47,473 bases of DNA, taken from an uncultured Eubacteriales bacterium (lineage in GTDB: Bacteria; Bacillota; Clostridia; Lachnospirales; Lachnospiraceae). Shown here in pieces: positions 4,266 through 6,700 of this stretch. The stretch is from the NCBI GenBank assembly GCA_900314565.1, contig OMVU01000028.1, forward strand, positions 1 through 47,473, given 5' to 3'. The notes under the pieces were generated by a model. That model had not been told where the DNA came from. It was given only the letters and a program-made list of their open reading frames with translations, and made no database searches. The position numbers and the translations under genes are program-made. The first letter of the stretch is position 1. Each line of letters begins with the position of its first letter.

Positions 4266-4385
4266 GACGACCTCCTTTCAGTCATATCTTTGCCAGGCAA
4301 TTTTTAATGTTCTGACAGTTTTTCCGGGTCTTTTGCGGCCCGTAAACCGAAATCACCTATGGAACCACACTGATCCTGTCGATCA

Positions 4386-4447
4386 GGTACAGCGGTCCTT
4401 TTCATCAAGTTTATTCTCCCTGATTTTCGCTGTATTCCGGGCAATTA
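4386..4447 (+). repeat. 62-bp repeat unit left of the insertion sequence
   Basis: One complete unit beginning GGTACAGCGGTCC and ending TTCCGGGCAATTA, the same as the units of the array at 6234-6470. The insertion sequence begins directly after it, so the unit and the array were contiguous before insertion. Confidence 0.9.
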
Positions 4448-4456
4448 GATAATATG

Positions 4457-4555
4457 AAGTGACCTCACATTTGTAGCATCGTGGATTTACCTGTATACTT
4501 ATGATTGACAAGATCAGTGGTAACAGGGATTACCGCATACAAAAGGAGGTCACTT
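4457..4555 (+). promoter_or_regulatory. Left-end sequence complementary to the transposase ribosome-binding site
   Basis: AAGTGACCTC (4457-4466), part of the left end, is the exact reverse complement of GAGGTCACTT (4546-4555), which spans the Shine-Dalgarno and the bases before the ATG. A transcript entering from outside the element could fold and hide the start site. A transcript starting inside, after 4466, would lack the pairing strand. This resembles the protection from read-through expression known in other IS elements; the function here is inferred. Confidence 0.6.
4471..4499 (+). promoter_or_regulatory. Possible internal transposase promoter
   Basis: TTGTAG (4471-4476), a 17-base spacer and TATACT (4494-4499) make a fair sigma-A match. 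Transcription would start near 4506, after the left-end strand of the sequestering hairpin. The -35 is imperfect. Confidence 0.4.
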
Positions 4556-5686
4556 ATGAAAAGAATAATCAAAATCGGCATGGATGTCCATAGTACAAAT
4601 TACACTTTATGCGCAATGGAGCCCATAATTGGAGCAGAAGAACGAGTTTTTGGAGAAATAAAGGTCGAACCAGACTATAAATGGATTATTTGCTTTATCG
4701 AATCTCTGAAAATGAAACTCGGATATGAGAATGATTACTCTATTGAATGCGGCTACGAAGCAGGCTGTCTTGGATATACTTTATACCATCAGCTTACTAA
4801 TGCCGGTATCAAGTGTGTGATTCTTGCACCGACAACCATGCTTACCCCACAAGGGCTGCGAATCAAAACGGATAAACGCGATGCTAATTTGATTGCAAAG
4901 TGTCTGTGCTACGGTGGTTATCATCCTGTATATATACCTACAGGCGAAGATGACGCTGTGAAAGAATACCTCCGGATGAGGGACGATCATAAGAAGGCGC
5001 TGAAAAAGCTGAAACAGCAGATCAACGCGTTCACTCTTCGACACGGGCATCAATATACCGGAACGAAATGGTCCGTAAAACATGTCATCTGGCTGAACAA
5101 ACTGGAACTCAAACCAATGTACCGTGAAACACTGGACGAGTACATGATTTCCTATCAGGAACAGGAATCAAAGATCGAACGTTACGATAAAAGGATTGAA
5201 GAGATTGCAACTGAAGCACGCTATAAAGAGAATGTGGGAAAGCTGGGATGTTTTCTTGGGATCCGTACGCACACAGCGCTTTCACTGATTGTAGAAACCG
5301 GAGACTTTAAACGTTTTGCCAAGGGCAATACCTATGCTGCATTTCTGGGCCTTGTCCCTGGAGAGCATTCCAGTTCAAACAGCGTAAATCGTCTCGGAAT
5401 TTCCAAGGCAGGAAATAAGCATCTTCGCTGCCTGTTGATTGAGGCCGCAAGAGGAATCTGTAAAGGAGCCATCGGCTATAAATCCAAGACGCTGCGCTCG
5501 AGACAGAGCGGACAAGCGCCGGAAATCATCGCATACGCTGACAAAGCGAATATCCGACTCCGCAGAAAATATCACAAAATGATCCGAAATGGAAAAAAGA
5601 AAAATGTAGCGGTCGCTGCTGTAGCAAGAGAACTTGCCTGCTTTATCTGGGGAATGATGACAGGAAGAATCAGCATCACTGCATAA
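4556..5686 (+). CDS. IS110/IS1111-family transposase (recombinase)
   Basis: A 376-residue recombinase. The N-terminal DEDD/RuvC-like domain opens with IGMDVHS (Asp10), continues with the acidic IECGYEAG (Glu64 or Glu68), and ends with KTDKRDA (Asp106, Asp109). A coiled, charged middle (about 135-225) leads to the Transposase_20 domain with GCFLGIRTHTALSLI, FLGLVPGEHSSSNS and KAGNKHLRCLLIEAAR. A Ser within 272-274 is the candidate catalytic serine. These enzymes excise the element as a circle and insert it at a site chosen by an element-encoded RNA. AAAGGAGG (4542-4549) fixes the ATG at 4556. The frame is open to an upstream TTG at 4505, which has no ribosome-binding site. The gene looks intact. 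Confidence 0.95.
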   Translation: MKRIIKIGMDVHSTNYTLCAMEPIIGAEERVFGEIKVEPDYKWIICFIESLKMKLGYENDYSIECGYEAGCLGYTLYHQLTNAGIKCVILAPTTMLTPQGLRIKTDKRDANLIAKCLCYGGYHPVYIPTGEDDAVKEYLRMRDDHKKALKKLKQQINAFTLRHGHQYTGTKWSVKHVIWLNKLELKPMYRETLDEYMISYQEQESKIERYDKRIEEIATEARYKENVGKLGCFLGIRTHTALSLIVETGDFKRFAKGNTYAAFLGLVPGEHSSSNSVNRLGISKAGNKHLRCLLIEAARGICKGAIGYKSKTLRSRQSGQAPEIIAYADKANIRLRRKYHKMIRNGKKKNVAVAAVARELACFIWGMMTGRISITA

Positions 5687-5765
5687 TCAGTTGATTCAGT
5701 CATTACACTCAGTCTAAAAAAGAAAATAAATTGATAATGAATTACAAGTAAAATGGGCCGTGGAT

Positions 5766-5881
5766 TTGTTGATAACCGGCATTGCGCTATGGATAAGGCA
5801 TGGACAGCCCGTGGACAGCAAAGCTGCCCACATCCTGCCCACACCTTACCCACAGCTCCATAAGAAGCCGGTTATCAACAA
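5766..5881 (+). other. Long structured hairpin in the IS 3' non-coding end
   Basis: TTGTTGATAACCGGC (5766-5780) pairs perfectly with GCCGGTTATCAACAA (5867-5881). Inside, TGGATAAGG (5790-5798) pairs with CCTTACCCA (5844-5852), and TGGACAGC (5812-5819) pairs with GCTGCCCA (5823-5830); each has one A-C mismatch. The result is one extended rod capped by a three-base loop. It lies between the transposase stop and the putative guide RNA. It may be a terminator-like barrier, an RNA fold or a DNA recognition site. Confidence 0.7.
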
Positions 5882-5958
5882 GCCCCACAGCCCCTGCTGA
5901 GGCGGATTCCCCAGACCATTCTTTCCATCTTATAATACATAGTTTCAAAAATAATATT

Positions 5959-6157
5959 TGTCAGCATCTGGAAGGAGCTGTGATCACTGTAAGGTTCGAG
6001 CTATCTGCGCTGTACCTATGTTGGCGCTTCGGTGATCCACGCTTTTAGATCGCAGAGCTCTCGGCGTAACCATTAGCCTGTCGGTAACCAATCCACGAAT
6101 AACAGAGTGGCCACATGCCGGGAACTGTTAAATCAGGGCTCCTTCCAGATGCTGACA
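5959..6157 (+). ncRNA. Candidate bridge/seek RNA of the insertion sequence
   Basis: A 20-bp perfect inverted repeat at 5959-5978 and 6138-6157 closes a 199-base domain. Inside, one hairpin has GAGC (5998-6001) with GCTC (6057-6060) and TCTGCG (6004-6009) with CGCAGA (6051-6056) across a two-base bulge. Its 5' loop side holds CGCTGTACCTA (6008-6018), the exact reverse complement of TAGGTACAGCG, the target at the insertion junction. A second small hairpin, CCAC/GTGG (6093-6096, 6107-6110), has loop bases ATAACAG (6099-6105), identical to the right junction at 6228-6234. The two-loop layout matches RNA guides of IS110/IS1111 elements, one loop for the target and one for the donor. RNA ends and expression are inferred. 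Confidence 0.75.
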
Positions 6158-6233
6158 GATCACACAAATTTGAATAGTAAGAAAAGTTTGTCTGGTGCTT
6201 ATTTTACTTCTTGACAAGGGTCACTTCATAACA

Positions 6234-6470
6234 GGTACAGCGGTCCCTTTCATCAAGTTTATTCTCCTTGATTTTCGCTGTATTCCGGGCAATTAGGTAC
6301 AGCGGTCCCTTTCATCAAGTTTATTCTCCTTGATTTTCGCTGTATTCCGGGCAATTAGGTACAGCGGACCCTTTCATCAAGTTTATTCTCCTTGATTTTC
6401 GCTGTATTCCGGGCAATTAGGTACAGCGGACCTTTTCATCAATTTTGTTCTCCCTGATTTCTCTAATCTA
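6234..6470 (+). repeat. 62-bp tandem repeat array
   Basis: Units start at 6234, 6296, 6358 and 6420, exactly 62 bases apart; the last is degenerate. Each holds GGTACAGCGGWCC, a small inverted repeat ATCAAG/CTTGAT around TTTATTCTC, and TTCCGGGCAATTA. With the unit at 4386-4447 the pre-insertion array had about five units. There are no unique spacers, so it is not CRISPR. Every unit junction offers TAGGTACAGCG, the predicted target of the IS RNA. Confidence 0.92.
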
Positions 6471-6700
6471 TGTAGTACAATAACAGGAAATCTGATGCCT
6501 GTGCCTAAAAGCCTCGACAGATGCAAAATCAATGTAGGACAATCATTAGAAATCCGCCCCGTGTGCCTAAAATACCTCAGAAAGACAAAAATCCATGGGG
6601 AACATTCACAGAAAATCTCCCCTGTGTACCTAACAGCCAATTCATGGGGAACAATTCCAAAAATCGTTCCTGTGTTTATTCAAATCTTAAACAGCTTAAT
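6471..6700 (+). repeat. Degenerate roughly 62-bp repeats
   Basis: Four related blocks begin near 6471, 6533, 6596 and 6645 with variants of TGTAGGACAATCA or CATGGGGAACA and later CCTGTGTGCCTAA. The first two are 62 bases apart, the third 63. They look like decayed relatives of an array continuing from the 62-bp repeats. No gene is seen here. Confidence 0.55.

Follow-up and report, generated by a model that had tools for sequence, protein, structure and literature searches.

The 47,473-nucleotide stretch of DNA analysed here, hereafter the window, comes from an uncultured Eubacteriales bacterium (contig OMVU01000028.1 of assembly GCA_900314565.1). It very probably carries an IS1111-type insertion sequence with an RNA of about 200 nt in its right end, holding target and donor guides that the recombinase would use for insertion. 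Conservation of the RNA structure and covariation of the guides with the flanks and ends of the elements support this reading. In a preliminary description of the window the RNA had been interpreted as the bridge/seek RNA of an IS1111-type element, an assignment borne out by guide-flank covariation, by compensatory changes in the stems and by the family of the transposase. The features are listed in Table 1.

Table 1. Positions of the observed and predicted features in the window.
Feature	Position	Strand	Basis
62-bp repeat unit left of the insertion	4385..4446	+	sequence
Left core dinucleotide AG	4447..4448	+	sequence
Probable IS1111-type insertion sequence	4449..6234	+	sequence; ends common to homologues; 62-bp array phase restored on flank joining
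Left subterminal inverted repeat TATGAAGTGACC, 12 bp	4453..4464	+	sequence
DEDD transposase/recombinase, 376 aa, ATG at 4556	4556..5686	+	Pfam PF01548 and PF02371; NCBIfam NF033542
116-bp palindrome between transposase gene and RNA	5766..5881 (region 5755-5897)	.	inverse-orientation self-match; outside the guide system
Probable bridge/seek RNA domain; closing stem P1, 5959-5979 with 6137-6157	5959..6157	+	fold; covariation
Predicted target-binding hairpin, stem 5998-6002 with 6056-6060 and 6005-6008 with 6052-6055	5998..6060	+	covariation
Variable target guide, 5' half CTGTAC	6010..6015	+	complementary to right-flank top strand; window 6/6
Core complement CT and mostly-A position	6016..6018	+	core covariation in 61 elements
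Target guide, 3' half CTTTT and AG	6042..6048	+	same strand as left flank; window 3/5 plus AG
Donor guide, left end, CATTA	6071..6075	+	covariation with left-end types
Donor guide, right end, ATAACAG (= 6228-6234)	6099..6105	+	follows three right-end types
CTGTTA, complementary to 6100-6105	6125..6130	+	changes with donor guide at one position
TTGACA, candidate junction promoter	6211..6216	+	sequence; inference
Right subterminal inverted repeat GGTCACTTCATA, 12 bp	6219..6230	+	sequence
Right core dinucleotide AG	6233..6234	+	right ends CATAAC-AG, CATAAC-GG or CATATC-AG in homologues
Tandem array to the right of the insertion, 3.7 units of 62 bp	6233..6460	+	Tandem Repeats Finder

The insertion sequence and its transposase

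The borders of the element are equally placeable at 4447-6232, since the AG core stands at both of them. The left core was AG in 55 and GG in 6 of the 61 readable left flanks of homologues, in a search whose pattern itself demanded AG or GG. With 12 bp, the subterminal inverted repeats lie within the IS1111 range of 7-17 bp (PMC11208160). IS1111 elements have terminal extensions of 7 bp to the left and 3 bp to the right of the inverted repeats (PMC11187229), and the same lengths are obtained here (AGATAAT and AAC) only with the repeat taken as 11 bp and AG assigned to the left. Non-coding DNA amounted to 546 bp downstream of the transposase gene as compared to 107 bp upstream; a long downstream region is characteristic of IS1111.

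The transposase scored 189.4 bits against NF033542 (IS110 family RNA-guided transposase), for which the cut-off is 140, and both the DEDD (RuvC-type) N-terminal domain and the Transposase_20 C-terminal domain were present. Its best sequence matches among solved structures were the transposases of ISCro4 and IS621. Residues 265-274 read GLVPGEHSSS, with SS at the place where the family motif GL-P----S(t)G has SG or TG. The serine of this motif is kept, and in the homologues the residue after it was mostly G, A or S and rarely D.

The predicted circle would have the junction CATAAC-AG-ATAATATG, in which TTGACA is located 17 nt before GATAAT (G6234 and 4449-4453). The joined ends of such a circle would create a junction promoter. 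A single full copy of the element was found in the host genome with up to 3 mismatches allowed.

Homologues used for comparison

The homologues were the best 80 of 158 relatives from one scan of genome contigs, and with the element of the window they make up a set of 81 (window and L019-L098). The RNA was alignable in 72 of these, the nine others being L029, L031, L032, L041, L043, L049, L087, L090 and L095. A usable right flank was available for 60 of the 72 and a usable left flank for 61, and 59 and 54 pairs, respectively, remained after identical guide-flank pairs were merged. The patterns used for the ends demanded an AG or GG core and one of a few end types, which made other types unfindable; pairing between RNA and ends was not built into them. 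Nine near-duplicates (L022, L024, L045, L050, L053, L055, L059, L062 and L079) were left out of the structure alignment, leaving 63 of the 72 RNAs. A strict run also dropped nine rows with right ends from a fallback pattern. L130, L129 and L136 have the same flanks as L036, L035 and L078, and they count as non-independent.

Structure of the RNA

A 199-base domain with a perfect closing stem of 20 bp had been described beforehand, and the fold agreed: P1 consists of 20 Watson-Crick pairs and one U-G pair, and the minimum free energy of the domain was -83.2 kcal/mol, as compared to a mean of -58.85 (sd 4.16) for shuffled sequences, none of which was as good (0/200). Compensatory stem changes among homologues, one of two checks proposed in the preliminary description, were also seen. 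The consensus from the 63 aligned RNAs contains 44 pairs, and 36 of them showed double compensatory changes. Overall 96.3% of the cells were paired, and the covariation score was 0.428, as compared to 0.204 when shuffled and at most 0.100 with the partners slid. Double changes were found at all 22 pairs of the closing stem (helix 1) and at all nine pairs of the target hairpin stem (helix 2), and at one of the eight pairs in the three short helices of the donor half.

Unusual stability of the 71-nt target hairpin alone was ruled out (z -0.01 against shuffles). It folds no better than shuffled sequences, and the support for this hairpin is its covariation and not its energy. The CCAC/GTGG hairpin around the donor guide was 96.0% paired with no covariation, and remains a prediction. 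At E up to 5 Rfam gave four chance matches, each far under its gathering score and outside 5959-6157, and the domain matched no described RNA family in that search.

The target guide and the flanks of the element

The preliminary description had reported 6008-6018 to be exactly the reverse complement of the junction restored at the insertion point, and both the sequence and the joining of the flanks agree with this. A match by chance is unlikely, as also had been claimed: by arithmetic, about 5e-5 matches of 11 nt to one fixed junction are expected in about 200 nt. In the homologues 6008-6009 is nearly invariant, 6008 closing the conserved stem and 6009 being a G, and so the 11-nt match is partly fixed sequence. 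In the order of the loop, the stem CTGCG or a variant of it precedes six variable bases, which are followed in most elements by CT and in most by A; after a small hairpin come about five bases and then AG or GG. Thus the segment described as a guide was retained as such in its variable part (6010-6015), and not at 6008-6009 or at 6016-6018. It is the 5' half of the target guide; the second half, which matches the left flank, had been overlooked.

The preliminary description had also proposed to see whether the guide changes together with the flanks, and it did. Over the 59 distinct pairs, 261 of the 354 positions of the 6-nt 5' guide agreed with the reverse complement of the right flank of the same element (homologues being the best 80 of 158). 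When the flanks were permuted among the elements the mean was 96.8 (sd 8.9), and 261 was reached in 0 of 20000 permutations. From the far to the core-proximal position there were 17, 33, 50, 54, 53 and 54 matches of 59, and the working 5' guide is about five bases and CT, with the far base near chance. As controls, the right flank was shifted by 1, 2 and 3 nt, which gave 113, 115 and 104 of 354 matches, modestly above their own permuted means of 91, 94 and 88, and the 5' guide was compared with the left flank, where no excess was found (73 vs 78 permuted). The permutations ignore the kinship of the elements, and a run with one row per guide is the sole correction for it. This run, done with strict right ends, gave 189/252 matches as compared to a permuted mean of 69.4 (sd 7.7; 0/20000), and at the five proximal bases the own flank was the best or tied best for 37 of the 42 guides and uniquely best for 25.

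The 3' guide agreed with its own left flank at 180 of 270 positions (54 pairs; permuted mean 99.7, sd 6.6; 0/20000). The core followed as well: on the 5' side 51 of 61 elements combined CT with AG flanks and 6 combined CC with GG flanks, with disagreement in the remaining 4, and on the 3' side 55 of the 61 had AG in guide and flank alike and 6 had GG in both.

In a minority of the elements the guide matched poorly. Poor matches of the 5' guide (2/6) were found in L035, L061, L064, L066, L071 and L083, and the right ends of L035, L061 and L066 came from the fallback pattern. L061 was aligned one base off, and TGCGGAA and CT in its RNA are the exact reverse complement of the right flank and core; the count was left unchanged. 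Matches of 3/6 were found in L022, L024, L026, L051 and L086. Among elements outside the set, L162 agreed with the rule (5' guide 5/6, 3' guide 5/5, by eye) and so did L132 (5' guide 5/6, left flank unreadable), and weak matches were found in L161 (3/6 and 3/5, by eye) and in L137/L156 (3/6 with a fallback right end, 2/5 left). L163 had no readable RNA. Our confidence in the RNA-guided reading is slightly reduced because two of these four outside elements match weakly. The 3/5 match of the 3' guide in the window, and the length and SS motif of the transposase, are further points against this reading.

Six guides were each common to at least two elements with a readable right flank, and in all six cases the flanks agreed at three to five of the five core-proximal bases. 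An identical guide at unrelated flanks had been named beforehand as the observation that would speak against a guide, and none was seen among these six. Shared guides were found at different sites (GCACCT in five loci, CCGTTT in two and TTCCTC in two), with flanks that were similar and imperfect. Such copies are expected if the guide precedes the insertion, which argues against a loop captured from the target afterwards, with the guide-flank agreement as a result and not a cause. The causal direction is visible only indirectly, and the host genome has just the one full copy (up to 3 mismatches), but this second order of events is very unlikely. We know of no mechanism by which a loop could be captured from the target.

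It is extremely unlikely that the RNA acts in cis as a regulator or terminator of the transposase, with a match to the target that is due to chance or is an ancestral remnant. The location of the domain 3' of the gene and its strong closing stem would suit such a function, but across the 59 distinct pairs the loop varies with its own flank and the stems keep their pairing, neither of which is predicted by chance or a remnant. That the recombinase protein alone reads the repeat, the RNA merely holding the donor ends, is compatible with the sequence of this single element but scarcely credible in view of homologues with transposases 74-86% identical to that of the window, which occupy different targets that track the RNA.

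The donor guides

The two donor guides of the RNA followed the ends of the elements. Left ends of the type ATAAT occurred with CATTA in 44 elements and those of the type ACAAT with CATTG in 21 or CACTG in one, so that all 66 readable cases among the 72 elements agreed at the variable base. The preliminary description had equated a loop ATAACAG with the right junction, and this sequence is indeed present at both places (6099-6105 and 6228-6234). The right ends CATAACAG, CATAACGG and CATATCAG corresponded to ATAACAG (47), ATAACGG (8) and ATATCAG (7), giving agreement in 62 of 64 readable cases of the 72 elements as scored. One of the two exceptions, by letters L034, was a wrong loop picked by the pattern, the real loop being ATAACAG; the other, by letters L035, has a doubtful right end. 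CTGTTA at 6125-6130 was paired with the donor guide in 91.5% of the cells, with nine double-change cells at one position as compared to 2.0 when shuffled. The number of its pairs with a double change was one, no more than in shuffles (1.2).

The target repeat in the host genome

Joining of the two flanks restored the 62-bp period, with the motif TAGGTACAGCG in phase at the insertion point. This motif was found exactly on the + strand at 6294, 6356 and 6418, and on the - strand at 6008-6018. The claim that it marks every unit border was right for four of the five borders, including the restored junction; at the border that precedes the first unit (4384) a single base differs from TAGGTACAGCG.

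The shorter pattern TTAGGYACAG occurred 85 times in the host genome as compared to 21 times for the reversed control pattern. The variable position was T in 39 of the 85, and 81 of the 85 were on a contig with another copy. The exact 11-mer was found 15 times in the host genome, once inside the RNA gene itself; with up to one mismatch the 11-mer was not enriched over the control in that genome (64 vs 103). The repeats, of 62 or 63 bp, are located at 4374-4448 and 6233-6690 of the window and on 21 contigs of the host genome, and they form inverted arrays, in which a forward copy faces a reverse copy at 82-83 bp in ten places and at 145-146 bp in four more. When two units served as the query of a DNA search, the repeat turned up in the host genome and in 0 of 40 related genomes; diverged forms could escape such a search.

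It is possible, if somewhat doubtful, that natural reprogramming has directed the guide to a conserved decamer (TTAGGTACAG) of a repeat family which, among the genomes searched, occurs in the host only, that the inverted 62-bp arrays provide the element with a renewable safe haven, and that sister elements have likewise been reprogrammed to ribosome-binding sites.

Proposed mechanism

We infer from these data that the RNA is transcribed, that the element is excised as a circle with a promoter at its junction, and that the RNA directs the reaction. In the target, RNA 6010-6017 (CTGTAC and CT) would pair with the top strand, to the right of and at the AG core, and RNA 6042-6048 (CTTTT and AG) with the bottom strand, at the core and to its left. 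The two ends of the element, which adjoin in the excised circle, would be bound by CATTA and ATAACAG through pairing. The recombinase would then align donor and target via the RNA at their common AG core and exchange the strands, which would leave AG at both borders. In the present element the guide would read the border TTAG^GTACAG of the 62-bp repeat, which the host genome contains in abundance.

Comparison with known systems

RNA-guided target choice was shown experimentally for IS1111 and IS110 elements in 2024 (PMC11187229, PMC11208160). Natural reprogramming of the guide between relatives has been published for IS1111 (Siddiquee et al. 2024, PMC11187229). According to the predictions of Durrant et al. 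2024 (PMC11208160), 93.0% of IS1111 elements have a bridge RNA. Elements of the IS110 family that target repeats have also been published, the repeats being repetitive extragenic palindromic (REP) sequences (Tobes and Pareja 2006, PMC1525189), as has the insertion of IS621 in REP.

The present element resembles the IS1111 elements with seekRNA (ISEc11, ISXne4 and others; PMC11187229) in its DEDD transposase, its subterminal inverted repeats and the long non-coding region 3' of the tnp gene. It also shares with them the order in the RNA, in which the complement of the top strand precedes the match to the bottom strand, the extensions of 7 and 3 bp, and natural reprogramming. Unlike these elements, whose transposases have 330-350 aa (PMC11187229), it has one of 376 aa, from a subgroup that by the record titles is mostly clostridial, with GL-P----SS in place of SG/TG, and its target is a 62-bp host repeat array. 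With the bridge RNA of IS110/IS621 (PMC11208160) the RNA has in common the target and donor loops and the bipartite target guide, together with a recombinase of the IS110 family. The core is CT in IS621 (PMC11208160) and its complement AG here. Unlike in IS110/IS621, the RNA is in the right end and not the left, and the donor guides are spread over its 3' half; a multi-loop was noted in many IS1111 RNAs (PMC11208160). Insertion into an abundant host repeat is a likeness to the REP-targeting IS110 elements (PMC1525189), whereas the repeat here is a tandem unit of 62/63 bp in inverted arrays.

Among the papers found on IS1111 with seekRNA, bridge RNA and Shine-Dalgarno sequences, none treats this subgroup or the targeting of ribosome-binding sites, as far as titles and abstract openings show. 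It had been suggested beforehand that the element and its repeat target are a specific new case. This claim of novelty is weak, the principle and the targeting of repeats being already in print; what is well supported is a further RNA-guided element of a sort known from other bacteria, its target being a conserved decamer of a repeat family that a DNA search found in 0 of 40 related genomes.

From the sequence alone, the analysis documents an RNA-guided and mostly clostridial subgroup of insertion sequences, whose target and donor guides are readable and can be checked against natural targets. The usable rule for the guide is about five bases and CT on one side and about three and AG on the other. 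Such a set of natural guide-target pairs may be useful for work on programmable recombinases, and it leaves the known principle unchanged.

Additional observations

Right flanks were also inspected for Shine-Dalgarno-like sites in 55 of the 60 elements, the other five flanks being too short. Nine of the 55 started with such a site, followed by a start codon (ATG in seven, TTG in two) and an open frame 60 or more codons long (L038, L039, L046, L051, L052, L055, L056, L082 and L098). The same was found at 136 of 10393 random positions in the same loci, with a loose site pattern and a control unmatched for intergenic position. The guides of these elements (AACCTC, ATCCTC, GCTCCT, GCACCT and ACCTTT) resemble the anti-Shine-Dalgarno sequence, and four of the nine share one guide. 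As a lead, ribosome-binding sites may be the targets of one branch of the family.

The right end of a second, diverged copy is located at a contig edge of the host genome (G000:C25:1-96, L004), with a different right flank; the RNA of this partial copy was not found in the assembly. A further sequence (C100:114171-114214) is similar to the donor part only and was judged by eye to be a remnant.

The distance from the transposase gene to the right end was 527 here, whereas most of the close homologues listed had about 340-440, L036, L058 and L059 being among the exceptions. The palindrome between gene and RNA had no second match in the host genome, and its region (5755-5897) holds motifs that we take to be DnaA-box-like. 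Free-standing copies resembling it were found in G018 and G010, two out of 41 further genomes of the genus, and a looser look-alike in L148. It appears as if a small palindromic element had been inserted into the insertion sequence.
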